64,000 bases of DNA from Niabella ginsenosidivorans (GTDB lineage: Bacteria; Bacteroidota; Bacteroidia; Chitinophagales; Chitinophagaceae): NCBI RefSeq assembly GCF_001654455.1, contig NZ_CP015772.1, positions 3,472,001 through 3,536,000 on the forward strand, given 5' to 3'. The number at the start of each line of letters is the position of its first letter. Positions within the stretch are counted from its first letter, which is position 1. Made by a program: the position numbers and the translations under genes. The notes beneath the pieces were generated by a model. The model was not told the DNA's origin. It saw only the letters and a program-made list of their open reading frames with translations, and ran no database searches. Positions 3,643 to 19,069 of this stretch are shown here, piece after piece.

Positions 3643-4368
3643 TTAAAAACGATATCCCACGGAAATGCCAAAGCCTCCATTCCTCAGCACCGCACCATTG
3701 TTACCACTATGATCCCTTGGCTCCAGGTTCGTAAAGCTGGTTTGTCCGTTTAACTGCAGGGAAACCCGGTTCGCAAATTCGTAACCGATCAGCACATTAC
3801 CCCCTACATCAAAACGCCTGCCATACAAAAGAGTATTGGGGTCATTGTTGTCCTTTGCATAGTCATTGGTAAAATACAAATCGCCGGTGGTTGTTTCTCC
3901 CTTATAGCGGCTTTTGTAAGTACCTCCCGCAGCGTATGCAAGGTAGGGGCCTGCTCCAATCATAAAATGACCCGCACCGGCCTGCGGCTTAAAAATAAAA
4001 TTCAGGGGCACCTGCACATTATAAACATTCACGCGGGTATAATCACCGGAGCCTTCTGTTCCTGATACATTCCCTGTATTCATATACTCATCTGCATCAT
4101 AGGTTAATTTTGCACCGCTCATGCTGAACAATGCAGCCGGTTGAAAAAACGCTTCATAGCCTATAGGAATGTCAAAAGTAACGCCCGCATTCACACCAGG
4201 CGTTAACTGGGCGCCTGTAACTTTATATCCGTTTTCATCCCTTATATACAAGCTGGAAAGATTCAGCCCTGCTTTAACTCCTACATCTACCTGGGCCATA
4301 GTAACACCTGCAATGCTGATGGTTATGGTTAGAAAAAGCAATTTCAAAAAAGACTTGTTTTGTTTCAT
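3643..4368 (-). CDS. Outer-membrane beta-barrel protein, PorT-like
   Basis: A 241-residue exported protein. Residues 1-25 are a signal peptide (hydrophobic stretch LLFLTITISIAGVTMA ending in AQ). The rest alternates polar and hydrophobic residues in amphipathic strands, starts with VDVGVKAGLNLSSLY and ends in GFGISVGYRF, with the terminal aromatic residue typical of outer-membrane barrels. This is the layout of the porT/outer_membrane_protein beta-barrel group that is abundant in Bacteroidota. No ligand can be inferred. It stands alone, with its own terminator behind it and a long non-coding spacer in front. Confidence 0.85.
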   Translation of the reverse strand: MKQNKSFLKLLFLTITISIAGVTMAQVDVGVKAGLNLSSLYIRDENGYKVTGAQLTPGVNAGVTFDIPIGYEAFFQPAALFSMSGAKLTYDADEYMNTGNVSGTEGSGDYTRVNVYNVQVPLNFIFKPQAGAGHFMIGAGPYLAYAAGGTYKSRYKGETTTGDLYFTNDYAKDNNDPNTLLYGRRFDVGGNVLIGYEFANRVSLQLNGQTSFTNLEPRDHSGNNGAVLRNGGFGISVGYRF

Positions 4369-4700
4369 AAAATAAAGATTTGATTTAAAATTCCCTGCTA
4401 CTACAATGTATCAGACGTTCTTTGGACAATAAATAGTTTCATAAGTAGCCTGATCCCGTGGATTTTATCATTTCTTTTACAATTGAGGGCTTATGTAAAA
4501 TTATTTATACAAATAAAACAACCGGCCCGGCTGATTGTTTATACCGGCCGGATTACCGGTACTACTGATTCGCACAGTTGCTTACCTGGTCATAACAGGC
4601 AGGTACATGCTCCAATCAATCGGGATCATTGGTTTAAACAGTTCCGGTATATCCGGAACAGGGCATTATACGGGTATCCTGATAGCAATCGGCAGATAGC

Positions 4701-4727
4701 CTTATATAAAAATCCTTTTTATATAAG
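4701..4727. repeat. Perfect AT-rich inverted repeat
   Basis: Two 12-base arms, CTTATATAAAAA and its exact complement, are separated by TCC. A second perfect palindrome, TTCCGGTATATCCGGAA, lies at 4642-4658. Both are in the 542-base spacer between the barrel gene and the malate:quinone oxidoreductase gene. They may be terminators or repeat ends. Confidence 0.6.
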
Positions 4728-4766
4728 ATTTTGTTAACAGATAAGAGGCTGTCAAAATAAAAAAAC

Positions 4767-4896
4767 CGCCATATCGGCTGAAGCGAAGCGAAACGGAGAT
4801 ATCTCATAATCAATACAAAACATTTTATGAGATTTACCTTCGGTGAAAAAGTTCTCGGCTACACTACGTTTCGAAATCACGACTTTTGATACACCC
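4767..4896. repeat. Dispersed repeat A, copy 1
   Basis: About 130 bases that recur in the same orientation at 9318-9439. The shared core runs from ATCTCATAATCAATACAAAA to ACTTTTGATACACCC and includes the hairpin TCTCATAA/TTATGAGA (arms 4802-4809 and 4825-4832). No reading frame is conserved. It lies immediately downstream of the malate:quinone oxidoreductase gene. Confidence 0.85.
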
Positions 4897-4910
4897 CCGC
4901 CAGGTTCTTT

Positions 4911-6446
4911 TTAATCCTTTTTCTTACCAGCAGGCATTTCACCGGGGGCAGGCTCTTTCCAGTCCAGTTGCAGCAGCGCAGAAGTATCAGTCCTTACCTT
5001 ATACCGCAGCAGATCGTCTTCTTCCAGCTTTTCACCCAAAGAAGGGATCATTGTTTTTAATTTTTTCTTCCATTTGCCATGGAACCGGTCCGGAAAACAT
5101 TTTTCCAGCAGGTTCAGCATGATGGACACTGCCGTTGATGCGCCCGGGGATGCGCCCAGCAAAGCACCAATCGTACCGTCCTGGCTGGCAACGATCTCCG
5201 TTCCAAATTGTAATGTGGCGCCTTTTTCAGGGTCCTTATAGATGATCTGTACGCGCTGCCCGGCATCCTCCAGCTTCCAGTCCTTAGCCTTGGCATTCGG
5301 GTAAAATACCCGCAAAGATTCAATACGGTCTGCAAATGAAAGACGGAGCTGCTGTATCAGGTATTTTTCAAGATCATAATTCTTTAGCCCTACCTTCATC
5401 AATGAAAAAATATTCCAGTATTTGATGGATTCAAACAGATCCCAGTTGGATCCCTCTTTCAGGAACTTCGTAGAGAACGTAGCAAAAGGGCCAAACAAAA
5501 TAGATGTCTGATCACCCATCACACGGGTATCTAAATGCGGCACGCTCATGGGTGGGGCGCCTACAGAAGCCTGCCCGTATACTTTTGCCTTATGCTTTTT
5601 TACTACTGCCGGGTTATTGCACACCAGCCACTGACCTCCTACGGGAAAACCACCATACAGCTTACTTTCAGGAATATCGCTGTCCTGCAGCAGGGCCAGT
5701 GATCCGCCGCCGGCGCCTATGAATACAAAGCGGCTGTAAACGATCATTTTCTCCCCGGTGGTCATGTTCTTCACTTTTACCTTCCATCTGCCATCATCCT
5801 GCCTGATCAGGTCGTATACCTCATGCAGCAGGTGCAGCTGTGTATTTCCGCGTGCCACCATATTATCAATAAAAATCTTGGTAAGAGCGCCATAATCCAC
5901 ATCTGTTCCCAACTCCGTATAAGTAGTCGCGATCTTTTCCTTCGGATCGCGCCCTTCTATCACCAGGGGGATCCACTTTTTGATCAGGGCAGGGTCTTCT
6001 GAATACTGCATTCCCCGGAACAATTTGTAGTGCTGCAGCGCCTCGTGTCTTTTACGCAGGTATTTTACATCCTTACTGCCCCGTACAAAACTCATATGCG
6101 GCACTGTGCGGATAAAAACCCGGGGATCCCGGATCTGTTTTTCTTTTACCAGGTAAGCCCAGAATTGTTTTGATACTTCAAACTGCTCAATAATATCCAG
6201 GGCCTTATGCGTATCAATAGTGCCGTCTTCTTTTTCCGGGGTATAATTCAGCTCACAAAGCGCGGAATGACCGGTACCGGCATTATTCCAGGCATCAGAG
6301 CTTTCCCCGGCCACTTTCCCCAGACGTTCAAAAATATGTATGGTATTTCCCGGTTCCAGTTCATTAATAAAAGCGCCCAGCGTAGCGCTCATAATTCCCG
6401 CACCAATCAGTACCACATCTGTTTTTATTTCCTTTCTTTTTGCCAC
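4911..6446 (-). CDS. mqo: Malate:quinone oxidoreductase
   Basis: A 511-residue FAD enzyme. The dinucleotide-binding motif GAGIMSA lies near residues 16-22, followed by the Mqo signature region SSDAWNNAGTGHSALCE, and a second glycine-rich FAD segment (FIGAGGGSLALLQ) lies near the middle. It oxidises malate to oxaloacetate and passes electrons to the quinone pool at the inner face of the cytoplasmic membrane, replacing or supplementing the NAD-linked dehydrogenase of the citric acid cycle. The length is typical of the family. It is transcribed alone, and repeat A lies right behind it. Confidence 0.95.
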   Translation of the reverse strand: MAKRKEIKTDVVLIGAGIMSATLGAFINELEPGNTIHIFERLGKVAGESSDAWNNAGTGHSALCELNYTPEKEDGTIDTHKALDIIEQFEVSKQFWAYLVKEKQIRDPRVFIRTVPHMSFVRGSKDVKYLRKRHEALQHYKLFRGMQYSEDPALIKKWIPLVIEGRDPKEKIATTYTELGTDVDYGALTKIFIDNMVARGNTQLHLLHEVYDLIRQDDGRWKVKVKNMTTGEKMIVYSRFVFIGAGGGSLALLQDSDIPESKLYGGFPVGGQWLVCNNPAVVKKHKAKVYGQASVGAPPMSVPHLDTRVMGDQTSILFGPFATFSTKFLKEGSNWDLFESIKYWNIFSLMKVGLKNYDLEKYLIQQLRLSFADRIESLRVFYPNAKAKDWKLEDAGQRVQIIYKDPEKGATLQFGTEIVASQDGTIGALLGASPGASTAVSIMLNLLEKCFPDRFHGKWKKKLKTMIPSLGEKLEEDDLLRYKVRTDTSALLQLDWKEPAPGEMPAGKKKD

Positions 6447-6683
6447 TTTCAGCGATTTTATAATTCAAAAGATGCGCAAAATTAAAAGAACTGAAGGATC
6501 GCAATAAACTGATTTTATGATTTTCTTTATTTTTTTACAAATGCTCCGGTATGAACAGTTGTTTCCCGGGCTCCTGCCAAGAATTTTAATACGCTTTCAG
6601 TTTGCAGAGAATCAATTGCTATCGCCCCTAAATGATTCCTGTTCATTCACCGGTGTAAAACACTAACTTTAATTCAAAAAACG

Positions 6684-7112
6684 ATGATCTGGAAGCAACC
6701 TGTTGATCTCGGAAGCTTAAACAATCCCCCGGAATACATGGGCACTTTTTTAGATATCCGGTTCACGGATGTAACAGAAGATTCGCTTACAGCCACTCTG
6801 CCCGTTACCAAAAAGGTACTGCAACCTTATGGCATTTTGCATGGCGGGGCCTCCGTAGTCCTTGCTGAAACGGTGGGCTCCTATGCCAGCGCGCTGGTCA
6901 TTGACCCGGATCAGTTTATGGCGGTTGGTCTGGAGATCAATGCCAACCATTTAAAACCCGTTTTATCCGGCATTGTAAAAGCAGTTTGCCGCCCGCTGCA
7001 CCTGGGCAGGAAAACCCATGTATGGGACATCCGGATCTTTAATGACCAGGATCAGCTTACCTGCATCAGCCGGCTGACCGTAGCGATCATTTCCAAACAG
7101 CAGTTTGAATAG
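6684..7112 (+). CDS. Hotdog-fold acyl-CoA thioesterase (PaaI/MenI type)
   Basis: A 142-residue single hotdog domain. It carries the family core LHGGASVVLAETVGS, where Asn/His-Gly-Gly and the following acidic residue form the active site, and the helix-end pattern VGLEINANHLKP. Such enzymes hydrolyse acyl-CoA thioesters, in some cases 1,4-dihydroxy-2-naphthoyl-CoA in menaquinone synthesis. The substrate cannot be told from sequence alone. It is separated from htpG by about 110 bases on the same strand, and cotranscription is possible but not shown. Confidence 0.85.
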   Translation: MIWKQPVDLGSLNNPPEYMGTFLDIRFTDVTEDSLTATLPVTKKVLQPYGILHGGASVVLAETVGSYASALVIDPDQFMAVGLEINANHLKPVLSGIVKAVCRPLHLGRKTHVWDIRIFNDQDQLTCISRLTVAIISKQQFE

Positions 7113-7223
7113 ATGTATCGCCCGGGCAGACTTTTGAAAATTTACAAGGTGAAACTGACAAAATGACCCAGCGTCCATCCGTGGTACTGCATTTGATGTA
7201 GTTTGGAAAAATTGCAAGTAACT

Positions 7224-9110
7224 ATGGTACAAGAAAAAGGCTCTATTTCTATTCATACGGAGAATATTTTTCCGATCATTAAAAAATTCCTCTATTCTGA
7301 TCATGAGATCTTTCTTCGCGAATTGGTTTCCAACGCAGTAGATGCTATACAGAAAGCAAAGCGCCTGGCAGCGCTGGGCCAGTTCAATGGTGAGATCGGC
7401 GCGCCCCTGGTAGAAGTAAAAGTGGATAAAGCCGCAAAAACCATTACCATTTCTGACAATGGGATCGGGATGACGGCCGACGAAATAAAAAAATACATCA
7501 ACCAGATCGCGTTTTCCGGCGCGGAAGAGTTCATGGAAAAGTTTAAGGAAGCAAAGGATGCATCGGAGATCATTGGTCGCTTTGGCCTGGGCTTTTATTC
7601 TGCTTTTATGGTAGCCAACAAAGTGGAAATTCAAACCCTCAGCTACCAGCCAGGGGCAGAACCTGCAAAATGGACCTGCGACGGGAGCACTGAATTTGAG
7701 ATCAGCGAAGGCAGCCGTACTACCCGTGGAACGGATGTGATCCTGTATATAAATGATGAGAACTCTGAATTCTTAGAGGATCACCGCATTGAAGGCATTT
7801 TAGATAAATATGCAAAATTTCTTCCTGTTCCGGTGCAGTTCGGAACAAAAACCGAAAATGAACCGGATGGCGAAGACGAAGAAGGCAAGCCAAAATACAA
7901 AAGCATTGAGGTACCCAATATTATCAATACCGGTGTGCCTATCTGGACAAAACCACCCAGCGAATTAACCGATAAAGACTACCTGGACTTTTACAGGGAA
8001 CTGTACCCGATGAGCGAGGACCCGCTGTTCTGGATCCACCTGAATGTGGACTATCCTTTTCACCTGACCGGTGTTTTATATTTCCCCAAGATCAAGAACG
8101 ATATTGAGCTGCAGCGTAACAAGATCAAGCTGTACAGCCGCCAGGTGTTTATTACAGACGAGGTAAAGGATATTGTTCCGGAATTCCTGATGTTGCTGCA
8201 CGGTGTGATTGATTCGCCGGACATTCCGTTGAATGTGTCCCGCTCCTTCCTGCAATCCGACGGGAATGTAAAGAAGATCAACACCTATATTACCAGGAAA
8301 GTAGCAGATAAATTAGCAGAGCTGTTTAAAAATGATCGTAAAAGCTACGAGGAAAAGTGGAGCGACATCGGCGTGTTTGTAAAATATGGCGCCATCAGCG
8401 AGCCAAAATTCTGGGAACGTGCAAAAGATTTTGTACTGCTGGTCAATACCAAAAAAGAATATTACACATTAACCGAATACAGGGAAAAGGTAGCCCCTGC
8501 CCAAACTGACAAGGACGGGAACGTGGTGTACCTGTACACTCCCAATGCAGAAAAACAGGACGCCTATATACAGGCCGCCAATAAGAAGGGCTATGATGTG
8601 TTGCTGATGGACAGTCCGCTGGACAATCATTTTATCAGCCATCTTGAAAGAGACCTGGAAAAAGTGCAGATCAAGCGGGTGGATGCGGATGTACTGGAAA
8701 AGCTGATCGATAAAGGAGAAGAGATCACCAGCAACCTGTCCGAAGAGCAGACAAAAGAAATAAAGGAGATCTACGAAAAGGCGATTACCAAACCGGGCAT
8801 GGAAATAAGCGTGGAAAATCTTTCGCCGGAAGCAATGCCTGTTAGTGTAACCATGGATGAGTTTATGCGCCGGATGAAAGATATGGCAGCACTGGGCGGT
8901 GGTATGAGTTTTTACGGGGCAATGCCTGATAAATACAAAGTAGCCATTAATGCCAATCACCCGTTGGCTACCAGGATCCTGGCGGAAACCAACGAGGAAA
9001 CCCGCAAGGCATTAGCCCAACAGGCGTTTGATCTTGCCCTGCTGGCACAGGGCATGCTGACCGGTGCAGACCTGACCTCCTTTGTAGAAAGAAGTGTGCA
9101 GATGATCTAG
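7224..9110 (+). CDS. htpG: Molecular chaperone HtpG (Hsp90)
   Basis: A 628-residue Hsp90 chaperone from the ATG at 7224. An in-frame TTG lies 21 bases earlier, but the family normally begins just before the SISIHTENIFP segment, which fits the ATG. The ATP-binding GHKL motifs are all present: ELVSNAVDA, ISDNGIGM and GRFGLGFYS. The middle and C-terminal domains follow, with the conserved LNVSRSFLQ segment. It is an ATP-dependent dimeric cytosolic chaperone. The acidic linker region EPDGEDEEGKP near residue 215 is short, as in bacterial forms. Confidence 0.96.
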   Translation: MVQEKGSISIHTENIFPIIKKFLYSDHEIFLRELVSNAVDAIQKAKRLAALGQFNGEIGAPLVEVKVDKAAKTITISDNGIGMTADEIKKYINQIAFSGAEEFMEKFKEAKDASEIIGRFGLGFYSAFMVANKVEIQTLSYQPGAEPAKWTCDGSTEFEISEGSRTTRGTDVILYINDENSEFLEDHRIEGILDKYAKFLPVPVQFGTKTENEPDGEDEEGKPKYKSIEVPNIINTGVPIWTKPPSELTDKDYLDFYRELYPMSEDPLFWIHLNVDYPFHLTGVLYFPKIKNDIELQRNKIKLYSRQVFITDEVKDIVPEFLMLLHGVIDSPDIPLNVSRSFLQSDGNVKKINTYITRKVADKLAELFKNDRKSYEEKWSDIGVFVKYGAISEPKFWERAKDFVLLVNTKKEYYTLTEYREKVAPAQTDKDGNVVYLYTPNAEKQDAYIQAANKKGYDVLLMDSPLDNHFISHLERDLEKVQIKRVDADVLEKLIDKGEEITSNLSEEQTKEIKEIYEKAITKPGMEISVENLSPEAMPVSVTMDEFMRRMKDMAALGGGMSFYGAMPDKYKVAINANHPLATRILAETNEETRKALAQQAFDLALLAQGMLTGADLTSFVERSVQMI

Positions 9111-9154
9111 GTTAGCACGGGAAAATGCTTTTTGCAGAAGGTGACTAAAAAGAA

Positions 9155-9230
9155 CCCTTGATTGTCACCCCGAAACTTCGGGGGAGCCTGACGAAATATA
9201 GACAATCAAGGGGTTAGCCTTCGTCAGGCT
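9155..9230. repeat. Nested and overlapping inverted repeats behind htpG
   Basis: Three inverted repeats interleave. CCCTTGATTGTC (9155-9166) pairs with GACAATCAAGGG (9201-9212) and encloses the hairpin CCCCGAA/TTCGGGG (9168-9183). AGCCTGACGAA (9185-9195) pairs with TTCGTCAGGCT (9220-9230). The first and third pairs cannot form at the same time, so two alternative folds exist. It may act as a terminator of htpG. Confidence 0.7.
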
Positions 9231-9317
9231 GACATTACTTTTAGTTACCTCCTGCTTCATTCATCTGCCCGCTGTAAACAGGAAATATCGAAGATTTCCT
9301 GCGTTCGCCCGCCGTCA

Positions 9318-9439
9318 ATATCGACTGAAGCGAAGCGGATATCTCATAATCAATACAAAACATTTTATGAGATTTACCTTCGGTGAAAAAGTTCTCGGGC
9401 TACATGCGTTTCGCTGAAATGACGACTTTTGATACACCC
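9318..9439. repeat. Dispersed repeat A, copy 2
   Basis: Second direct copy of the element at 4767-4896. The central 70 bases are nearly identical, while the left end lacks a few bases (AAGCGGATATC against AAGCGAAACGGAGATATC) and the right end varies around GCTACA-GCGTTTCG. The internal hairpin is conserved. Confidence 0.85.
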
Positions 9440-9530
9440 TCAATATTCCGTTTTTATTCCGTGCTCTTTTCCCCGTTCGCCGGCAGGAATCGCATTCTAC
9501 TGATGTTTCTATCTTCCTGCAATCTGCTCC

Positions 9531-9803
9531 TCAGCCTTTCTCTATAAAGAACCTCCGGTAAATTCCGGGGAAACCCTTCAGCATGTCCTGTGCTACAGCA
9601 ACCCCACACCGGTGACCCGCGCCGAAGGCTTCTTCCGGTCCTGTCTCCGGATGCAGTGAACCTCCCTGTTTTCTCAACAGATCGGCAGGGCAGATAAGTG
9701 TAAAACAGTGATGATCAAATATGCCTGGGTAAAAGCTAAAAGAGGGAAATTGCATTAACGGGCTCCCGTTAATACTAAAGGCGGGTTCGGTTAGCTGTGC
9801 CAT
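9531..9803 (-). pseudogene. Possible truncated VgrG-like N-terminus
   Basis: An open frame of 90 codons from the ATG at 9803. Its first half (FSINGSPLMQFPSFSFY, then HHCFTLICP) resembles, from memory, the opening strands of type VI secretion Vgr-family proteins of Bacteroidota, which are several hundred residues long. The frame stops soon after, with no gp5-like or C-terminal part downstream. If the resemblance is right, it is a broken relic. If not, it is an unrecognised small protein or a chance frame. No type VI structural gene is seen nearby. Confidence 0.35.
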
Positions 9804-9970
9804 ACATAAGGCTTTTTGTGATTTATAAACAAACCGTTTCAAACCATCCGTTCATTATCAGCAAGCAACAGTTTGTTATTAAAAACAATACGCTATAGTT
9901 AAAAATTAAAATTTATATTAGCGGCTATCAGTATCTGGAACTGAGGATGTATTTTTTCTGTATTCTTCCT

Positions 9971-9978
9971 TAAATTTG
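9971..9978 (+). promoter_or_regulatory. Putative -7 box of the exporter/glycosyltransferase/prenyltransferase cluster
   Basis: The sequence TAAATTTG matches the Bacteroidota -7 consensus. It lies 96 bases before the ATG at 10075 (54 before the TTG at 10033), and no other gene intervenes. The -33 region is T-rich but has no clear TTTG, so confidence is moderate. Confidence 0.45.
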
Positions 9979-10074
9979 CAAACAGCCAGAAATGACCCTG
10001 CTTTCCCGGTTGTAAGAAATTGACTATGTCCCTTGAAACGAATTAGCGGAAAGATCCATCAGCTCAGGAGCAGT

Positions 10075-11847
10075 ATGAATCTTTCAAAGATCATTGCTCT
10101 TGTAAAGGCCTCTTCAAAGAACAGCCTTTATCTTGTTGTGCTTTTCATTCTGGCTGAATCCGCCGTTTTCTTTACTTCCCTGTACCTGTTAAAAAAGCTG
10201 GTCGACATTGTGGCGCATGTTCAGCAGCATTCTGAACAAAGCTACCGGCAGATCCTCATTTATGTAATTGCCGCGGGTGTTGCAGGGGTGGTTTACTTAA
10301 TGATCCGCTCCTATAGCGCCTATCTGGTTGAGGCACAAGCTGCCAGGGTAGCGGAATACGTAAATGAGCAGATCCATACAAGGGCAGTAAACCTGGATCT
10401 GTCGTTTTATGAAAGCCCCTCTTACTATGATACGCTGAAACGTGCTATGGACAGTGGTGCGGAGCGGCCCAGCCTGATCATTACCACCCTGATAGAGCTA
10501 TTAAAAAACGCAGCCTCACTGGCCGCCGTGGGCGCTGTTCTGATCCTTATTAACTGGATGCTGCTGCCACTGCTTGCACTTTTTATTCTGCCAACGCTTT
10601 TTGTGCGCTTACATTATTCAAAAAAGCTGAACGACTGGCGCATAGCGCAAACACCCCTGGAACGAAAATCTGCCTACTACTCCACACTGATCACAACCGA
10701 TACAGCGGCTAAAGAGATCCGGGCTTATGACCTGGGTAATTATCTCAAAAACCAGTTCGTAGCCATCCGTAAAACCCTGATGAAAGAAAAGCTTGCGATC
10801 AATTTAAAACGCACCCGGCTCGAATCATTTACCACGGCTATGTCCAACATCGGTGTTTTTGTCTGCATCGGGTTTATTGCATTAAAAACCGTCAGTGGTG
10901 AAACAAGCGCCGGCGACATTACCTTATTCCTTGTGGCGTTTCCCCAATCCTTTACCATACTGCAGAACATTGCCGCCGGCATTTCTCTTTTATTTCAAAA
11001 CAGCATCTATGTAAACAGCATCTTTGAGCTGCTGGAACTGAAAGACCGGCTCAGCGAGCCCCGGGAGCAGCCAGCCCCGCTGCCGCAACAGGGAAAGGAA
11101 TTAGTGCTGGAGAATGTATCCTTTACCTATCCGCATGCGGCAGTGCCCACATTAAAAAATATTAACCTCAGCATTCCTTCCGGCAGGATCATTGCGATCG
11201 CCGGCCTGAACGGAGCCGGCAAATCCACTCTCATTAAACTGCTTTGCCGCTTGTATGATCCCGGTTCAGGAAAAGTGCTGCTCAACGGAACGGATATACG
11301 GAACTATGATGCCCATGAATTCCGCAAAATGATCGGCGTTGTATTCCAGGACTTTAACAGGTACAGCTTTACGGCCGCAGAAAATATATACCTGGGCAAT
11401 ATACAGGCTCCTTTTGATGAAAGGAGAGCTAAGGAAGCGGCAGAGAAATCCGGAGCCGCAACGTTTATCAATTCCTTCCCCAAACAATATGATACAGTAA
11501 TGGGGCGCCTGTTTGAAGACGGACAGGAAGTGAGCATCGGCCAGTGGCAAAAGCTGGCCCTGGCCAGGTGTTTTTATTCAGATGCCCAGTTTCTCATTCT
11601 TGATGAAGCCACCAGTGCGCTGGACGCAGCTTCTGAATCAGGGCTTTTTGACACCCTGAGGGAAAAGCTGGACAACAGAACAGCAATCGTGATCAGTCAC
11701 CGGCATTCTTCCCTCAAACACGCCGATTACATTTATTTCCTGGACGGTGGTACCATTGTGGAACAGGGTACTGACCAGGAGCTGATGGCCCTGCAGGGCG
11801 CTTATGCTAAATTATTTACAGAAAAAGACCTCTCCACTCCACAATGA
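10075..11847 (+). CDS. ABC exporter half-transporter (membrane domain fused to ATPase)
   Basis: A 590-residue protein from the ATG at 10075, which has AGGAG seven bases ahead; an in-frame TTG at 10033 would add 14 residues. About six membrane helices fill residues 20-320, followed by a nucleotide-binding domain with Walker A GLNGAGKST (about 377-385), Walker B FLILDEATSALD and the switch histidine in VISHRHSS. The signature loop reads SIGQWQ instead of LSGGQ, a variant seen in some peptide and lipid exporters. It should act as a homodimer in the inner membrane. It heads a run of five genes with overlapping ends, so it probably exports or flips the product made by the downstream glycosyl- and prenyltransferases. 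The substrate is unknown. Confidence 0.88.
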   Translation: MNLSKIIALVKASSKNSLYLVVLFILAESAVFFTSLYLLKKLVDIVAHVQQHSEQSYRQILIYVIAAGVAGVVYLMIRSYSAYLVEAQAARVAEYVNEQIHTRAVNLDLSFYESPSYYDTLKRAMDSGAERPSLIITTLIELLKNAASLAAVGAVLILINWMLLPLLALFILPTLFVRLHYSKKLNDWRIAQTPLERKSAYYSTLITTDTAAKEIRAYDLGNYLKNQFVAIRKTLMKEKLAINLKRTRLESFTTAMSNIGVFVCIGFIALKTVSGETSAGDITLFLVAFPQSFTILQNIAAGISLLFQNSIYVNSIFELLELKDRLSEPREQPAPLPQQGKELVLENVSFTYPHAAVPTLKNINLSIPSGRIIAIAGLNGAGKSTLIKLLCRLYDPGSGKVLLNGTDIRNYDAHEFRKMIGVVFQDFNRYSFTAAENIYLGNIQAPFDERRAKEAAEKSGAATFINSFPKQYDTVMGRLFEDGQEVSIGQWQKLALARCFYSDAQFLILDEATSALDAASESGLFDTLREKLDNRTAIVISHRHSSLKHADYIYFLDGGTIVEQGTDQELMALQGAYAKLFTEKDLSTPQ

Positions 11848-13025
11848 GCAAACACAACTATCATATAGCTATTTTATCCTGTTGTATTGACGACTGGGGA
11901 GGCAGTGAGGAGCTATGGGCGCGCAGCCTTCCCCTGTTGATTAATGAAAACTGCAATTGCAGGCTTTATAAGAACAGGATTAACTTTCAGCATCCTGAAA
12001 TAAAAAAATTAAAAGAGCTGGGCGTTCGTTTTTCAGAGCTGGATCCGCAACGTTCAGGTATAGGAAACGTGGCAAGAAAAATGCGGCAGATCATGAATCG
12101 CCTTACCGGCCATACTCATCAGAACCCGCTTACCTTTAGTCCGCTGCCTGCTGTTTTTCATAAACAGTTGCGCAAAAACCGTCCCGATTTTGTCATTATT
12201 GCCCAGGGAATCAATTTTGACGGGCTGGAATTTGCTTATGAATGCAGGCAATTGAACATTCCCTACGCCGTAATTGCGCAAAAGGGAGTGGATTTTTACT
12301 GGCCGCCAACCCGGTACAGGGAAGAGATGAGAAGAACGCTGCAGGCTGCGCAAAAATGTTATTTCGTATCAAAACATAACCAAACGCTTACAGAAGAGCA
12401 ACTGGGCCTGCGCCTGAAGAATGCGGAGCTGGTCTCCAACCCGGTAAAGCTGCCACGCGCACCACTGCCTTTTCCATCTGCCGGCAATGGCTACAAGCTG
12501 GCCTGTGTGGCCCGTTTATTTATTATTGACAAGGGACAGGATATTTTACTAAGGATACTCAGTAAAGAACCCTGGAAAAGCCGGAACATAGAGGTTTCCT
12601 TTATTGGCTCGGGGACTGACGAGCAGGGGCTAAAAGAGCTGGCGGCGCTGCTCAATATAACCAATGTAACGTTCCGGGGCCAGTTGAATAATATTAGCCG
12701 GGTTTGGCAAACCCATCATGCACTTTTACTACCTTCGCGTAGTGAGGGCATGGCGCTGTCTGTTCTGGAAGCAATGGCTTCAGGCCGGCCGGTGATCGTT
12801 ACCAACGCGGGGGGTCACGCCGAGATCATCCGGCATGGCATCAACGGGTTCATCAGCGATGCAACGGAAACCGCTTTTGCTGCAAACATGGAGGAAGCCT
12901 GGCAACAAAAAGAGCACTGGGAAAAGATCGGGTTACAGGCCTCTCAATTTATTAAGGATCATGTACCTGAATCTCCCGAACATAATTTTTCATTATCAAT
13001 TTTGAAACTGCTAAATGATCTCTAA
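11844..13025 (+). CDS. Glycosyltransferase family 4 (GT-B fold)
   Basis: A 393-residue retaining glycosyltransferase. The N-terminal half has an unusual opening (SCCIDDWGGSEELWARSL, including the donor/acceptor-site glycines). The C-terminal GT-B domain carries LACVARLFIIDKGQD and the EGMALSVLEAMASGRPV segment, which holds the E-x7-E motif that contacts the nucleotide sugar. The ATG overlaps the stop of the ABC gene by four bases (ATGA), which implies translational coupling. There is no signal peptide, so it acts in the cytosol. Donor and acceptor are unknown. Its place between an exporter and a UbiA prenyltransferase suggests that it decorates a lipid or isoprenoid. Confidence 0.88.
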   Translation: MSKHNYHIAILSCCIDDWGGSEELWARSLPLLINENCNCRLYKNRINFQHPEIKKLKELGVRFSELDPQRSGIGNVARKMRQIMNRLTGHTHQNPLTFSPLPAVFHKQLRKNRPDFVIIAQGINFDGLEFAYECRQLNIPYAVIAQKGVDFYWPPTRYREEMRRTLQAAQKCYFVSKHNQTLTEEQLGLRLKNAELVSNPVKLPRAPLPFPSAGNGYKLACVARLFIIDKGQDILLRILSKEPWKSRNIEVSFIGSGTDEQGLKELAALLNITNVTFRGQLNNISRVWQTHHALLLPSRSEGMALSVLEAMASGRPVIVTNAGGHAEIIRHGINGFISDATETAFAANMEEAWQQKEHWEKIGLQASQFIKDHVPESPEHNFSLSILKLLNDL

Positions 13026-14004
13026 GCCTCTCGTATCTGTTATCATGCCTACATATAACAGAGCCACTAAAATATTGAATGCAATTAACAGCGCATTAGG
13101 GCAAACATATACCAACATCGAAATACTGGTAGTAGACGACGGCTCAGCAGACGCTACCCGGGAAGTTTTAAAGGACGTGCAGGGAATCCGGTACATCCGG
13201 CAGGAGCACGGCGGGCAGGCCAGGGCCCGCAACACCGGCCTGGCGCTTGCAAAGGGCGAGATCATCGCTTCCCTTGACTCAGATGATATCTGGTACCCGT
13301 CTTTTTTAGAGAGATGCGTAGATAAGCTGACTGCGGACAACCTGGATTTTGTTTTTGCCAACTGGGACCAGGAAACGGGGGAGGGCGCTACTGCCGATTT
13401 CCTTACCCAGCACATTTATATCCAACCCTATTTTCATAAGATGAAAGACGGATGGGTAAACCTTACCAATGATGAGATCCGGAAAGTGTATTTACAGGGC
13501 TGCCCCTCCCCCTCATCGGCGCTGATCATACGGCGCTCCATAATGGGCTCCGGCTGGAACCCGGAAATAAAGATCGGGGACGACTGGTATCTATACCTTA
13601 ACGTGATCCTCTCCGGAAAACGAACGGCCGCTTTTACCCTTGACCGTTTATGGAGAAAATGCATCGATCAGAAAAATATATACGACGGGCGCAAAAGAAG
13701 CGAGGTACTGGAAAACCTATATATAGCAGACCTCCACAAAATGATTACCGCATTCAAAGACCGCCTTACTCCTGAGGAATTAAAGTTTCTCCAAAACAAG
13801 CATGTATACAGTCTTGTAGAACTGGCCAAACATAATCTGATCAGGGAATTCAACCTTGTAGAAACGGGGAAACTCCTGGGGCGCTCTTTCAGCATTGATG
13901 CGGCCCATGCTTTTAAATCGATTCCCGAAGTGATCAGCTTTGGACTGAAAAGAAAGCTGGGCATTTACAGAACCAAAAGGGATGGCAGGAGCAAAGCAAA
14001 CTAA
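13015..14004 (+). CDS. Glycosyltransferase family 2 (GT-A fold)
   Basis: A 329-residue inverting glycosyltransferase. It starts with PLVSVIMPTYNRA, the GT2 opening strand, followed by the nucleotide-binding VVDDGSADATRE and the metal-binding LDSDD at about residue 91. The region around IGDDWYLYLNV supplies the ED-like catalytic base. Its start lies 11 bases inside the preceding glycosyltransferase gene, and its end overlaps the next gene if that gene uses its first ATG. No membrane helix is visible. The sugar and acceptor are unknown. As the second sugar-adding enzyme in the cluster, it suggests a disaccharide or longer head group. Confidence 0.88.
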   Translation: MISKPLVSVIMPTYNRATKILNAINSALGQTYTNIEILVVDDGSADATREVLKDVQGIRYIRQEHGGQARARNTGLALAKGEIIASLDSDDIWYPSFLERCVDKLTADNLDFVFANWDQETGEGATADFLTQHIYIQPYFHKMKDGWVNLTNDEIRKVYLQGCPSPSSALIIRRSIMGSGWNPEIKIGDDWYLYLNVILSGKRTAAFTLDRLWRKCIDQKNIYDGRKRSEVLENLYIADLHKMITAFKDRLTPEELKFLQNKHVYSLVELAKHNLIREFNLVETGKLLGRSFSIDAAHAFKSIPEVISFGLKRKLGIYRTKRDGRSKAN

Positions 14005-15103
14005 AGGGCATATGGAGGCACAGAACATGCATTTGGAAAAGCTGCAACAAAGCATTCATGCCGCTGTACATTATCTGGCCGGGCACCAGTTACCCAACGG
14101 GGAGTTTATGACCTATATAGCACCTGATGACAAAATGCGGCAATGGTGTGTGCCGGACAGTAACACCTTCATCCCCGCGCTGATCGGCAATTGCCTGATG
14201 CCGCTTGAAGCTTCCTTTCCGCCAATAACAGCAATGCTGGATAAAACGGTGGCCTTTCTGCAATATCAGATGATGAGGGGAGGTGTCTGGCATTTTTTCC
14301 CTGCGTGGCACCCGCAGTTCAAACGCCTTCCGCCAGATACAGATGATACGGTAACCATTGCTGCCCTGTTGCGTAAAAGAAAAAAGCTCATTTTTGATAA
14401 TACCCCCATGCTCCTTGCAAACAGAACCAGAAACGGGCTCTTTTACACCTGGTATACCCTCCACCCTACCTTTATAAAATTTCCCCGTACTTACTGGCGC
14501 CTGATTCTGAGAGAGCTGAAGCACCCGCTAAGTACACTCCTGTACTGGATAAAAGGAGACCATAAGCGAAATGATGTAGATGCCATCGTAAACGCGAATG
14601 CCATTTACTATTTGGGGTATAACAAAACAACTGAACCGGTGGTGCGGTATCTTGCAGCCATCATCCAAAATAATAAAGAAGCCGGCAGTGACAAATGGTA
14701 CCTGAACCCTCTTGCCTACTTTTATTTTATATCAAGGCTGTATACAATACCAGGCGTTCCGTCTATACTTACAAACATTAAGCCCCTGATTATTAAAAAA
14801 ATTATAAATGCTATTCACAACAGTGCTGCGTTTGCAGACTGTGATCTGGAAATGGCGCTTGCCCTGTCTGCACTGGTAAACATGGATTATAAAGACCCCG
14901 GTTATCTTGCCGGGCTTGCAGCGCAGTTAATGGAAAAGCAGCAGACAGCAGGCAACTGGGAAAGGTATATTTTAGGTACGCACCCTAAAAAAATTATCGG
15001 GTGGGGCAGTGAAGAAGCCACCACGGCGCTTGCAGCAGAAGCCCTGTATCACTATCAGCTATCTTTACAAAATACAATGCGGGAAAATCATGAAGCTGTT
15101 TAA
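13982..15103 (+). CDS. Alpha/alpha-toroid protein with class II terpene cyclase-like DTDDT motif
   Basis: A 373-residue protein with no signal peptide and no membrane helices. Residues 119-123 read DTDDT, matching the DxDD(T) general-acid motif of class II terpene cyclases. QW-type repeats (Q-x3-G-x-W/F) are visible as QLPNGEF (36-42), QMMRGGVW (about 97-104) and QQTAGNW near residue 323, as in prenyltransferase/squalene-oxidase repeat proteins. The length corresponds to about one toroid, shorter than two-domain cyclases. ATGs at 14012 or 14027 are alternative starts, the last fitting a conventional N-terminus MHLEKLQQ. It overlaps its neighbours and precedes a UbiA prenyltransferase. Cyclase activity is an inference: single-toroid proteins with a similar motif and unknown function also exist. 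Confidence 0.65.
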   Translation: MAGAKQTKGHMEAQNMHLEKLQQSIHAAVHYLAGHQLPNGEFMTYIAPDDKMRQWCVPDSNTFIPALIGNCLMPLEASFPPITAMLDKTVAFLQYQMMRGGVWHFFPAWHPQFKRLPPDTDDTVTIAALLRKRKKLIFDNTPMLLANRTRNGLFYTWYTLHPTFIKFPRTYWRLILRELKHPLSTLLYWIKGDHKRNDVDAIVNANAIYYLGYNKTTEPVVRYLAAIIQNNKEAGSDKWYLNPLAYFYFISRLYTIPGVPSILTNIKPLIIKKIINAIHNSAAFADCDLEMALALSALVNMDYKDPGYLAGLAAQLMEKQQTAGNWERYILGTHPKKIIGWGSEEATTALAAEALYHYQLSLQNTMRENHEAV

Positions 15104-16106
15104 GATCATACGTTCTGCTGAATGGTGGGAATATAAATTGCCTCCGCTACTGGGGATTGGCTACGCCACAACCCTGAAATGTGGCGGGCAGATCTATGAT
15201 TACTGGAGATGGCTGTTTGTTATCCTGCTTTCCTTAGTAGCGGGCGCTGCCTATGTAAGCATCATTAACGATGTTACAGATCTTAAAGATGATATTATGG
15301 CCGGTAAAAAAAACCGGATGCAGCATTTGCCTGTTTATTGCCGCTGGCTGTTGCCGCTGCTTTGCCTGTTACTGGGGCTTTTCTTTGAGTATACGATCTA
15401 CTATCCGGATACAATTTCAATGATCCTGTACCTGGTTCCCTGGGTATTGTTCAGCCTTTATTCCTTTCCGCCTTTCCGGCTTAAGAACCATGGGTTGCCC
15501 GGCATATTGTGCGATGCCGGCGGATCACATGTTTTTACCAGCCTACTGATGATCAGCAGCATGTCTTTTGCTATGAACCGGCCGATCGACATTGCCTGGC
15601 TGACCCTGACGGGGATCTGGGCGCTATGTTATGGCTTAAGAGGCATTCTCTGGCATCAGTATACCGACAGGGAAAACGATATCCGCTCAGGATTGAATAC
15701 GGTAGCTACCCGGATTCCTCCCCAAAAATTCAGGCCACTGGAAACAACTATTTTTCTAATTGAATTACTGGTTACATTAGGTATTTTCCTGTATCTTTCC
15801 AACCTGTGGATCATCATCGCATATGCATTTTACGTGCTGCTTTGCTTTTTGCGCAGCCGGTTCCTGGGCCAGCGGCCGGTTGTTATATTAACCAGCGGCA
15901 ATATGCCCGTGCAAATTTTACAGCTGGATTATTTTCAGTGCATCTTTCCGGTTACTTTACTGATCTGCGCTACCATTACAGACAGAGATAATCTGCTTCC
16001 GCTGACCGTTCACCTGGTGCTTTTCCCGGACACACTTATCAGGATGGTTAAAGACCTTAAAGCCGTCCTTTATACAATAATAAAAACTAAAAAACTGAGC
16101 GCCTGA
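15090..16106 (+). CDS. UbiA-superfamily prenyltransferase (membrane)
   Basis: A 338-residue integral membrane protein with about eight or nine helices. The start was placed at the ATG at 15090, inside the end of the toroid gene, because the upstream extension has no membrane character. Both aspartate-rich magnesium/diphosphate motifs are present: N60-D61-x2-D64-x3-D68 (NDVTDLKDD) and D193-x3-D197 (DREND). The YSFPPFRLKNHG loop is also typical of the family. UbiA enzymes move a prenyl group from a diphosphate to an aromatic or other acceptor in the membrane, and some members cyclise terpenes. No quinone-pathway genes are adjacent. The partners (toroid, two glycosyltransferases, exporter) suggest a specialised lipid. 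Confidence 0.88.
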   Translation: MKLFKIIRSAEWWEYKLPPLLGIGYATTLKCGGQIYDYWRWLFVILLSLVAGAAYVSIINDVTDLKDDIMAGKKNRMQHLPVYCRWLLPLLCLLLGLFFEYTIYYPDTISMILYLVPWVLFSLYSFPPFRLKNHGLPGILCDAGGSHVFTSLLMISSMSFAMNRPIDIAWLTLTGIWALCYGLRGILWHQYTDRENDIRSGLNTVATRIPPQKFRPLETTIFLIELLVTLGIFLYLSNLWIIIAYAFYVLLCFLRSRFLGQRPVVILTSGNMPVQILQLDYFQCIFPVTLLICATITDRDNLLPLTVHLVLFPDTLIRMVKDLKAVLYTIIKTKKLSA

Positions 16107-16141: not shown

Positions 16142-19069
16142 TTACTGCCGGCACAGATCCCTGATCTTTGATGCTTCAATGGTTGCCTCAGGCCTGAAAT
16201 TATCTGATTCCATATATTTTTCCAGGCTGTATAATAATTGCCTTGCTTCCGGCCGCTGCCCGGCATTACTGAGCAGGTCTATTGATGATACAAGCAACCG
16301 GCCTTTGCCCACCCTGCATTCAAAAAGCAATGCCAATGATCTTGCGGTAACCCAATCATCAATGACCCTTACAATAGGCGTTAATCCCTTCTGAACCGAA
16401 TCCAGGATCATTGCACCGGAATGGCTCATTGCATCCCACCATTGCCAATCACTGTAGTAATCTGTAGGAAAATAGCTGAATGCCGGGTGACGGGGATTGC
16501 ACAGTATGCCTAATGTATGCGGCGGCTGGCCATGCGTCCAGGCAGTGTTCCAGAATATACTCGAAAAGCCAACAGCAATATTACCGCCTTTATCTTTTTT
16601 AAGGGCGCCTTTCTTTAAAGTAAGCAACACCCTGGCGCCTTTATTCAGTTGGGAAACCGTTTCGCTATCGAATGTTTGCGTAATAAAAATATCTTTTGCA
16701 ATGGCCGGGTTCCCGGCAGGGTATACATAAAACGTCCATGAGTTTTCATAACCGGCTACAGACACGGTTAACGTAAGTTTTGATGGCTGCAGAACAGATG
16801 CTAACTGCTGCCTGATTACCCCTAACTGAAAACCATTTCCGACCGGGATGGTTGTTTGCTGTGAAAATTTACCGGCAAATAATAGCTGGCCTGCGGCATT
16901 TTTAACTGACCAGAGCGGGATGATGCCCTTCAGCGGCTTTTCATTAAAATTAGCCAGTTCAACCGGAACGTCCAAAGCTTCGTTATTTAAATACACCATC
17001 TTTGAAAACCTTGCCAGGGGCACCACAGCATTGCAGAACCGGCTGTATTCTTTACTGCTGATATACCCTTTGTCCTTCCAGAATGCATTCACAACCCCTA
17101 CCAATGCCGTTCCCTGGCCGGGAAAATCTCCAAGGCCCAATAATTGAAATCCCCCAAAATTTTTTGTGCGTAAAGCCGCTTCAATATCCGCTTTATAGCA
17201 GAGTACCTGCAGTTTTCCTGAAGCCAGCAAAAAACTGTCAGCAAGATGCTTCATACCATTGGCTTCAAGTGCTTGCCGGAATATTTCAAAGTTTTTTGCT
17301 TTTAAGATCCCGGTGTATTGCGGAATTTCCCTGAAATCGGGATAAACACACCATTGCCCGATCTCATGACTGATGGTGGGATGCTTCCATTTTGCAATGA
17401 TCGCAGACCAGTCATAATTGGTCCTGGGAGGCTCATTGTTTATAATGCTCTTTAAACCGGCGCCCCATGCCTGTATGCGGGGGTCCGGAGTGCTGTTATA
17501 ATCGCTTTCAGGAATTATGGGCCAGCCTGCACCGGTAGTATACAGCCGGCGCGGATCCCTTTTCTTCCAGGAGGTTACAAACCGGGTAAGGTACCCGGTC
17601 ATATGTTTCCCCGCAGGTTCATTGCCATACGCCAGCATGCAAAAGGACGGGTGGTTGCCATAAGTTTTTACAATGCGCCGGCTTTCGTCCTCAATAAACT
17701 GATCCAGGGGGTTTCCATCGCCTATAGTGGCTCCCTGGTTTGCCCAGGAAGAGCACTCTATCTGCAGATAAAACCCTGCGCTGTCGGCTTCAGCAAAAGC
17801 GATCTCCGGCGGGCACCAGGAGTGAAACCGGATATGGTTCAGCCCGTAGGAACGGCATACTGCAAAAATATGACGCCAGTAGGAAGCCGCTGCCGGCGGG
17901 TACCCGGTAAGCGGAAACACCGCACATTCCAGTGTTCCGCGAAGGAAAGCAGGGCGGCCATTAATAAGAAGTTGCTGGTCATTGGATGTAAAACTGCGCA
18001 TTCCAAATGTGACCGCTTTTTTATCGGAAGCTCCATTACCCGCAACCGTTACCTGCATTGCGTACAGATTGGGGTGGAACTCATCCCAAAGCAGGGGATG
18101 ATCACCCATAGGATAAATAACGCTGACCATATCACCACCATTGCCTTTAACCCTTATATCCTGCAATAAAGGTGTCAGCGGCACTGCGTTCCAGCCACCC
18201 CTGAAGGCCGTTAGCTCTAAACGGGCATTGACAGCGGCAGTGTTTAAATTCTTTAATGAAATAACAGCCGTCACCTGCTTTTTTTCAATATCAGGGAACA
18301 ATTGAACGTCATCAATATATAATCGCGGGCGGGACAAAAGCATTATTTTACCCGTTATCCCATTCCAGTTGGTCTGCGTATGATCCGAAATACTATGCGA
18401 GTTCACGCCTACGTTTACTTCATTTACCCGGTTATCTACACGAATAGTAAGATAGTGGACACCGGGTGATAACAACGAATCGATGGAGTACTCATGCGGA
18501 GTGCCCAGCGCATTTTGCGTCCCAATCTTTACAGTGTCGATCCATACGGTGGTTTGCCAGTGACAGCGCTCCAGAAAAAGGCTGATGTGCTTTTTGTTCC
18601 AGCCAGGCGGAATATGAACGACCTTCTGGTACCAGGCTGCGCCTTTATAGTACTTATTGGGCTGCAACCAGAAAGGCACTTTGATATTACCCGGATTGCG
18701 ATACCGGGCATACCGGGGCTCAAAAAACCAGGAAGAGTCCACAATATCCCCGGTCCACGGGGTATTTATAGAAACAGCATCACCCAGGTTGTTGGTGGCC
18801 ATTGAGCCAGGAAGGCGAATGATGCCCGTAAGTTTTTTGGCATACCATTGCCGGCTAACCCCTATATCCTGCACATCCGTTTGAAAATGCCATGTTCCGG
18901 ACAGGTTGATGGAATTTTCATCCTTCGCAACAGGGCGTTGCGCATTTATAATAATACAGTTGTTCATGAATAGCAACAGGAACAATATTCTTTTACAATA
19001 CTCGCTTTTTGTCACCTGTATTTTTTTTATAGCGATACCGGGCCTTTCCCAACTGAAGTTTTTTTTCAT
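16142..19069 (-). CDS. Secreted glycoside hydrolase family 2
   Basis: A 975-residue exported enzyme. A long n-region precedes the hydrophobic stretch ILFLLLFMNNCIIINAQ (about 28-44). A jelly-roll sugar-binding domain follows (about 50-250, with WYQKVVHIPPGW), then an immunoglobulin-like domain (250-360) and the TIM barrel. The barrel carries FLRGTLECAVFPLTGYP, RFHSW, the acid/base pair N483-E484 in YGNEP and the probable nucleophile E569 in HEIGQW. The C-terminal 350 residues form further beta domains. It probably removes a terminal beta-linked sugar in the periplasm. The substrate (galactoside, glucuronide, mannoside or other) is not decided by the motifs. It converges on the prenyltransferase gene and is not part of that cluster. 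Confidence 0.85.
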   Translation of the reverse strand: MKKNFSWERPGIAIKKIQVTKSEYCKRILFLLLFMNNCIIINAQRPVAKDENSINLSGTWHFQTDVQDIGVSRQWYAKKLTGIIRLPGSMATNNLGDAVSINTPWTGDIVDSSWFFEPRYARYRNPGNIKVPFWLQPNKYYKGAAWYQKVVHIPPGWNKKHISLFLERCHWQTTVWIDTVKIGTQNALGTPHEYSIDSLLSPGVHYLTIRVDNRVNEVNVGVNSHSISDHTQTNWNGITGKIMLLSRPRLYIDDVQLFPDIEKKQVTAVISLKNLNTAAVNARLELTAFRGGWNAVPLTPLLQDIRVKGNGGDMVSVIYPMGDHPLLWDEFHPNLYAMQVTVAGNGASDKKAVTFGMRSFTSNDQQLLINGRPAFLRGTLECAVFPLTGYPPAAASYWRHIFAVCRSYGLNHIRFHSWCPPEIAFAEADSAGFYLQIECSSWANQGATIGDGNPLDQFIEDESRRIVKTYGNHPSFCMLAYGNEPAGKHMTGYLTRFVTSWKKRDPRRLYTTGAGWPIIPESDYNSTPDPRIQAWGAGLKSIINNEPPRTNYDWSAIIAKWKHPTISHEIGQWCVYPDFREIPQYTGILKAKNFEIFRQALEANGMKHLADSFLLASGKLQVLCYKADIEAALRTKNFGGFQLLGLGDFPGQGTALVGVVNAFWKDKGYISSKEYSRFCNAVVPLARFSKMVYLNNEALDVPVELANFNEKPLKGIIPLWSVKNAAGQLLFAGKFSQQTTIPVGNGFQLGVIRQQLASVLQPSKLTLTVSVAGYENSWTFYVYPAGNPAIAKDIFITQTFDSETVSQLNKGARVLLTLKKGALKKDKGGNIAVGFSSIFWNTAWTHGQPPHTLGILCNPRHPAFSYFPTDYYSDWQWWDAMSHSGAMILDSVQKGLTPIVRVIDDWVTARSLALLFECRVGKGRLLVSSIDLLSNAGQRPEARQLLYSLEKYMESDNFRPEATIEASKIRDLCRQ

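Follow-up and report, generated by a model that had tools for sequence, protein, structure and literature searches.

A cluster of five genes lies at positions 9971-16106 of a 64,000-nucleotide stretch (the window) of the complete 5.63 Mb chromosome of Niabella ginsenosidivorans. The genes encode an ATP-binding cassette (ABC) exporter, two glycosyltransferases (GTs) of types GT4 and GT2, a protein of toroid fold (the toroid), whose nearest relatives are the Niabella toroids (Chitinophagaceae), and a UbiA-family prenyltransferase. The present analysis indicates, with a probability that we put at about 0.6, that the cluster encodes the enzymes and the transporter for a cyclic terpenoid lipid that carries sugars and is exported, probably a glycolipid of the meroterpenoid type. 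This reading is carried by the enzyme classes, the conserved catalytic residues, the linkage of the genes, the fusions of UbiA to the toroid and the replacement of one exporter type by another. A glycosylated, exported isoprenoid-type lipid had been proposed in a first-pass annotation of the window; the synteny and the nearest relatives described below support it, the product itself being a prediction. The features are as follows.

9971-9978, + strand: candidate Bacteroidota -7 element TAAATTTG (weak, by position only)
10033-11847, + strand: ABC exporter, fused permease-ATPase of the MsbA/lipid-flippase type, 604 amino acids (aa), TTG start (Pfam ABC_tran/ABC_membrane)
11844-13025, + strand: GT4 glycosyltransferase, 393 aa (PF13692, 2.1e-27)
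13015-14004, + strand: GT2 glycosyltransferase, 329 aa (PF00535, 1.4e-38)
14012-15103, + strand: toroid, putative class II terpene cyclase, 363 aa (fold, motifs, alignment with the drimenol synthase AsDMS)
15090-16106, + strand: predicted UbiA-family membrane prenyltransferase, 338 aa (PF01040, 2.3e-10)

Conservation of the Five-Gene Set

Peptide patterns drawn from five toroids were run against the species-genome collection, a procedure that misses remoter relatives, and gave 39 toroid loci. Their hosts are Niabella, Pedobacter, Chitinophaga, Paracnuella, Mucilaginibacter, Hymenobacter, Fibrella, Fibrivirga, Tamlana and Wocania, together with some uncultured Bacteroidota, Sphingomonas, Spirulina and one archaeal metagenome-assembled genome (MAG). 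Linkage was counted by tblastn at a threshold of at least 100 bits within at most 10 kb, with queries from the window and from Hymenobacter/Fibrivirga. Near the toroid, UbiA was found in 37 of the 39 loci, GT4 in 34, GT2 in 33 and an exporter in 35. The full five-function set is present in 32/39, and the arrangement is therefore not due to chance. The seven incomplete loci are L033 and L034 (near a contig end), L048 (GT2 unmatched), L051 (exporter unmatched), L053 (toroid alone), L054 (a fusion, with other GTs present) and L056 (GTs not found, broken frames).

The five functions occur together in Niabella, Pedobacter, Chitinophaga, Mucilaginibacter, Hymenobacter, Fibrella and Flavobacteriaceae. 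A Novosphingobium plasmid (L096) likewise holds Wzm, Wzt, toroid, UbiA, GT4 and GT2 together, and because of this like set, contamination is an unlikely source of the Sphingomonas contig (L048), where the set is near-complete. An altered form of the cluster is found in two cyanobacteria. The first-pass annotation had left its proposal to stand or fall with synteny beyond close relatives, and the set is indeed kept across genera of Bacteroidota and on the Novosphingobium plasmid. Gene order and strand differ between the loci, so that common descent of a colinear block does not by itself account for the linkage.

In a sample of 244 genomes of the family, the toroid is present in five and the UbiA in seven, all five toroid carriers having the UbiA (Fisher p 3e-9, kinship not corrected). 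Among 395 genomes sampled from the phylum, the window's own included, a toroid match at E 1e-3 was obtained in eight, three of them weak, and a UbiA match at 1e-15 in six. The distribution of the cluster is thus wide but sparse.

The exporter is MsbA-like in 23 of the 39 toroid loci and of the Wzm plus Wzt type in 12; none has both and four have neither. The two types replace each other in otherwise like clusters. For the ABC protein of the window, the best NCBIfam match is MsbA_lipidA (275 bits, cut-off 602), and the PglK model gives 134 bits against a cut-off of 1000.

The Toroid as a Probable Class II Cyclase

The toroid has no Pfam match at an E value of 1 or better. It has the alpha6/alpha6 toroid fold of the terpene cyclase beta domain and is closest to class II terpene cyclases, AsDMS being the nearest solved relative both in sequence and in fold. 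The alignment with the AsDMS cyclase domain covers residues 1-349 of the 363 at 18% identity. The DxDD motif claimed in the first-pass annotation is present as D-T-D-D at residues 109-112 (numbered from the start at 14012), but over the family it has to be refined, the invariant being D-x-D followed by D, S, N or T. D109, D111 and Y230, the counterparts of AsDMS D331, D333 and Y427, are kept in all 39 rows of an alignment from which the partial L026, the L054 fusion and the second toroid of L044, with one internal stop, were excluded. A QW-type repeat is a defining feature of class II terpene cyclases; here it takes the form Q-x3-G-x-W, with Q310 and G314 in 39/39 rows and W316 in 38/39. The toroid is thus supported as a monodomain class II cyclase of the MstE/TCbeta type, for which a proton-initiated cyclisation is predicted.

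The same alignment bears on the order of the reactions. AsDMS acts on free farnesyl diphosphate, as described in excerpts of PMC12365925, and one could imagine that the toroid cyclises a free prenyl diphosphate first and that UbiA then moves the cyclic group to the acceptor, with glycosylation and export following. The diphosphate-binding R378 of AsDMS aligns with R186 (R in 30/39 rows) and R425 with K228 (K in 20/39, R in one), as such an order would predict. However, Y373 and Y426, whose alanine variants are dead according to the excerpted AsDMS data, correspond to W147 (39/39) and W229 (35/39), and R380 to D188 (D in 38/39). Moreover, clusters of UbiA, GTs and exporter occur without a toroid match (L017, L018 and L080), which argues that UbiA need not receive a cyclised donor. 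We consider the cyclase-first order unlikely.

Two relatives of the toroid stand in other surroundings. One, with a DIDDT motif and no UbiA match, is found in a Methanoregulaceae archaeon MAG (L053:10001-10981, also L086), where the neighbourhood resembles by eye a nucleotide-sugar/polysaccharide locus. The other lies on a contig of G452 (L088:1818-2744, 4229-9830) that also has a radical S-adenosylmethionine (SAM) gene (PF04055). Inspection by eye suggests in addition a peptidase-type ABC transporter and a short, Gly-rich candidate precursor peptide; UbiA gave no tblastn match on this contig. The toroid here is maybe used in peptide modification.

The UbiA Protein and the Prenyl Supply

The UbiA protein matches PF01040 with 40.6 bits, above the cut-off of 34.2. 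The two Asp-rich motifs, N60-D61-x-x-D64-x-x-x-D68 and D193-x-x-x-D197, and an N-terminal R-x3-W-W-x2-K signature of the group are invariant in 36/36 rows of an alignment that leaves out L019, L021, L026 and L056 (broken or uncertain frames) and L034 and L053 (no UbiA). In the assemblies of L019, L026 and L056, several genes of the cluster are distributed over more than one reading frame, which may reflect genuine decay or sequencing errors. Four NCBIfam models match the protein at E 1 or better, with every score far under its cut-off: PRK12875 (25.0/205 bits), menA_cyano-plnt (21.2/225), homogentisate phytyltransferase (18.3/226) and PRK08238 (13.5/351). The genome holds three further UbiA-family genes. 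A role in a quinone or carotenoid pathway was rejected in view of these sub-cut-off scores and of the three other genes; such an origin had been named beforehand as the finding that would speak against the proposal, and the nearest relatives are instead class II cyclases for the toroid and only distant models for UbiA.

The first-pass annotation was also right that the run contains no isoprenyl-diphosphate synthase. Two polyprenyl diphosphate synthase genes (PF00348) are found in the genome, both away from the cluster, and a prenyl donor is therefore available. As to the acceptor, we considered geranylgeranylglyceryl phosphate (GGGP), which would give an ether lipid like that made by digeranylgeranylglyceryl phosphate (DGGGP) synthase. 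The GGGP synthase PcrB (PF01884) is present in 11/11 genomes of the same family that were tested, the window's included, whether or not they have the cluster. It is absent from the toroid carriers G375, G347 and G625 and from G320, which has a UbiA cluster without toroid, and it scores under the cut-off in G627. GGGP was therefore rejected as a general acceptor because of the genomes that lack PcrB, while in the window's own genome, where PcrB is present, it is a possible one.

Proposed Pathway

In the most economical scheme, UbiA would act in the inner membrane and load a small polar acceptor with the prenyl chain of a shared prenyl diphosphate; the toroid would carry out the class II cyclisation of the transferred chain. 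GT4 and GT2 would subsequently glycosylate the polar head, and the MsbA-like ABC exporter would flip the product across the inner membrane. The acceptor, the prenyl chain length, the action of UbiA before the cyclase, the sugars and the biological role are what we infer in this scheme. Three features speak for such a pathway, namely the fusions, the exporter replacement and the oxidation and decoration genes.

A number of points weigh against it. The chemistry is predicted from the genes alone, and none of the five window genes makes an acceptor, the loci of relatives not having been searched systematically for such genes. UbiA is without a close characterised relative, the best solved one by profile being chlorophyll synthase (7e-6), followed by DGGGP synthase (4e-4) and decaprenyl-phosphate phosphoribosyltransferase (9e-3). 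The ABC protein is under the cut-off in the best 25 of the 205 NCBIfam models matched. DxDD is not conserved, the residue after D-x-D being D in 22, S in 10, N in 6 and T in 1 of the 39 rows, and the AsDMS diphosphate contacts appear to be kept only in part (R at the R378 position in 30/39, D at the R380 position). The archaeal L053 toroid has no UbiA, and in L034 none was found beside the toroid at the contig end. Both genes are rare in the family (5/244 and 7/244), the Fisher p ignores kinship, and three of the five toroid genomes belong to one genus. Finally, sugar epimerases have the same barrel, with Z up to 22.7, equal to the values of some true two-domain class II cyclases (22-23).

This last similarity could suggest that the toroid is a non-cyclase sugar- or lipid-handling (alpha/alpha)6 protein, for example an epimerase-like one, in an O-antigen-type pathway whose unusual lipid carrier, for instance a polyprenyl phosphosugar, would come from UbiA. 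With D109, D111, Y230 and the QW-type repeat on the other side, we regard this as very improbable, and the glycosylated cyclic terpenoid lipid is the reading that we retain.

Fusions, Decoration Genes, and Clusters without Toroid

In Spirulina sp. CS-785/01, one open reading frame (ORF) of 1510 aa has the composition PhyH-UbiA-toroid-PhyH-TPR. A 1218-aa protein on a plasmid of Nostoc sp. C052 has PhyH (95-190), UbiA (286-605), toroid (653-993) and TPR repeats, and the genes annotated nearby encode glycosyltransferases, a sulfotransferase, and the permease and the ATPase of an ABC transporter, these two matching the Wzm and Wzt profiles. Such fusions seem rare: a toroid match at 1e-10 was obtained in 2/194 cyanobacterial genomes, the Spirulina itself and G771, which has a broken fragment. 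The latter (L087:8270-8680) contains a stop and lies beside an ORF that resembles GT2 by eye; the cluster profiles matched nothing else there, and it is perhaps a remnant.

A fusion of an acyltransferase (AT) with a cytochrome P450 is present in 9/39 loci and also in L084, and acyltransferase-3 genes occur as well. The AT (PF00698)-P450 protein, found at L027:6500-8758 and in eight more of the 39 loci, and at L084:5093-7339, has by eye an intact heme-binding stretch; the best model for its P450 part is 'P450-derived glycosyltransferase activator', with 121 of 343 bits, under the cut-off. L084 also has a sulfotransferase-like gene just below the Pfam cut-off (24.6 of 27 bits). L018 has a PhyH gene and a sulfotransferase (PF13469) with an adenosine phosphosulfate (APS) kinase, and its product is possibly sulfated.

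Four loci have UbiA without a toroid match. In L017, L018 and L080 it is accompanied by ABC, GT4 and GT2, in the short contig L081 by GT2 alone. Since the toroid-less clusters keep UbiA, the GTs and the exporter, these genes seem to form the core, with cyclisation as a very common addition. In L018:5194-18176, the UbiA/GT4/GT2/ABC genes are followed by PhyH, a second PhyH-like gene, a methyltransferase, an acyltransferase-like gene, the APS kinase and the sulfotransferase. L017, L018 and L080 each hold a methyltransferase nearby, and a SAM methyltransferase taking the place of the toroid was considered. The L018 enzyme resembles many small-molecule methyltransferases (8e-16 at best), and its likeness to geranyl diphosphate methyltransferase is weak (3.4e-4; NCBIfam 39 of 400 bits); the idea is left as a lead. 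Close to the toroid-less cluster of L080 (14379-16876), a second UbiA-family gene (PF01040, 55.6 bits) is followed by an oxidoreductase-like gene, a pair that presumably resembles the decaprenylphosphoryl-ribose set.

These clusters also help to judge whether UbiA could itself be a class I terpene cyclase of the UbiA type that follows the toroid in the pathway. The product would then be a glycosylated terpene alcohol, and neither an aromatic nor a polar acceptor would take part. Pairs of class II and class I cyclases are common in diterpene pathways, P450 or 2-oxoglutarate oxygenase genes stand beside the toroid in most Hymenobacter loci, in Flavobacteriaceae and in the two cyanobacteria, and no acceptor pathway is found in the five-gene run. 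However, the toroid-less clusters retain UbiA with GT4, GT2 and exporter, and the closest solved relatives of UbiA are prenyl or phosphoribosyl transferases. We thus hold a class I role for UbiA to be improbable and keep the assignment as a prenyltransferase.

Evolution of the Toroid Gene

Between the window and L014, the closest relative (same genus), four genes are 66-73% identical and the toroid 40%. Over the loci, the identity matrix of the toroid correlates with those of the other genes with r 0.61-0.79, the others among themselves with 0.78-0.90. The comparison leaves out proteins with internal stops, L054, second toroid copies and the duplicates L055 (= L016) and L057 (= L015), and the same sets were used for quick trees of the toroid (41 rows) and of UbiA+GT4+GT2 (35 rows). 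A swap of the cyclase between the window and its sister L014 is not supported. Because the toroid tree does not reject a window+L014 clade (approximately unbiased (AU) test, p 0.465), the low identity may reflect fast divergence.

The toroid of L040 groups with Chitinophaga/Sphingomonas toroids (SH-aLRT 99), whereas its UbiA+GT4+GT2 group with Hymenobacter, Fibrella and Fibrivirga (100). L041 and L044 have two tandem toroids, and their second copies, which are absent from the toroid tree, are 60-61% identical to that of L040. On account of this resemblance, the loss of one of two old copies would fit the discordance as well as an exchange. The second gene of L044 (9989-11065) has one internal stop, its L041 counterpart none.

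Gene Boundaries and Upstream Region

According to the ORF list of the window, all five genes are on the + strand and nearly gapless. The five codirectional, overlapping genes of the first-pass annotation, and its assignment of the ABC, GT4, GT2 and UbiA proteins, are confirmed by the ORF positions and by Pfam. Its overlaps of 4, 11, 23 and 14 bases agree exactly with the earliest possible starts, and the 23 bases between GT2 and toroid require the first toroid ATG (13982). In L014 the spacings are -4, -11, +8 and -14; the toroid start is for this reason more likely ATG 14012, and a 7-base gap probably separates it from GT2. The TTG start of the ABC gene is backed by an N-terminus that can be aligned in L014. 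For UbiA, the listed ORF begins with GTG at 15009, and ATG 15090 is the start that matches the homologues.

The single -7 box that had been placed upstream is present as TAAATTTG, but it carries little weight, since TANNTTTG occurs 69 times on both strands of the window against 65.6 expected by chance. Downstream, at 16142-19069 on the - strand, a large ORF runs towards the cluster; its 975-aa product has domains of glycoside hydrolase family 2 (PF02837, PF00703).

Significance and Comparison with Known Systems

The cluster offers a function that can be tested for two orphan groups, namely the toroid family, whose member in the window goes without a Pfam match, and this branch of UbiA. It also points to a terpenoid glycolipid pathway in phyla in which terpene chemistry has, to our knowledge, been little explored. 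Domain models miss the toroid, so that programs which detect clusters through such models may pass over these loci. The cyanobacterial fusions suggest that a membrane-bound intermediate is passed on directly, and a single polypeptide would allow this step to be studied. Should the cyclase be a variable module and the sugar-lipid core be fixed, the clusters would form a natural set for work on the diversification of ring systems. More tentatively, and with somewhat less than even odds in our estimate, they could represent a widespread, undescribed class of exported glycolipids of Bacteroidota, Sphingomonadaceae and Cyanobacteria, anchored by a prenyl chain that a UbiA-cyclase pair closes into rings, with interchangeable exporters and a variable cyclase/oxidation module (AT-P450, PhyH) that diversifies a conserved sugar-lipid core. 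No description of UbiA with a class II cyclase, glycosyltransferases and an ABC exporter was found in the titles and abstract beginnings of open-licence PMC articles, where absence is weak evidence.

The ebo cluster, a set of six genes, includes a UbiA gene. It was considered and set aside (PMC5133447, in excerpt).

UbiA shares PF01040 and both Asp-rich motifs with chlorophyll synthase and DGGGP synthase, but these are only distantly similar, and the cluster proteins form a separate group with the R-x3-W-W-x2-K signature. The exporter has the ABC architecture common to the MsbA/PglK-type and Wzm/Wzt glycolipid exporters, but lies far below the curated MsbA and PglK cut-offs.

The HAD-TCbeta drimenol synthases (AsDMS, AstC) are the best match of the toroid in sequence and fold, with aligned D-x-D and Tyr catalytic residues. 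Unlike them, the toroid is without a HAD phosphatase domain, the fusion partners in its relatives being PhyH, UbiA and TPR. The residue after D-x-D is T in the synthases and variable in the toroid family (D/S/N/T), and the head-group contacts differ (Y373 to W, Y426 to W, R380 to D).

A parallel in pathway logic is the cyanobacterial merosterol pathway. According to excerpts of its description, a UbiA-like prenyltransferase and a cyclase like squalene-hopene cyclase yield a cyclised meroterpenoid, the precursors drawing on elements of methylerythritol phosphate (MEP), carbohydrate and tyrosine metabolism, with two P450s (PMC5618424). The proposed scheme has its precedent in this pairing. The likeness extends to the linkage of UbiA to a monodomain class II cyclase in 37/39 toroid loci and to the two fusions, in the Spirulina and Nostoc relatives. 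The merosterol cyclase MstE and the toroid are 15-16% identical, the aromatic-acceptor genes are not among the five window genes, and the partners usually found here are two GTs and an ABC exporter of the lipid type, which sets the cluster apart from the mst set as described in those excerpts. With these differences, the cluster is best filed under bacterial meroterpenoid-type biosynthesis.
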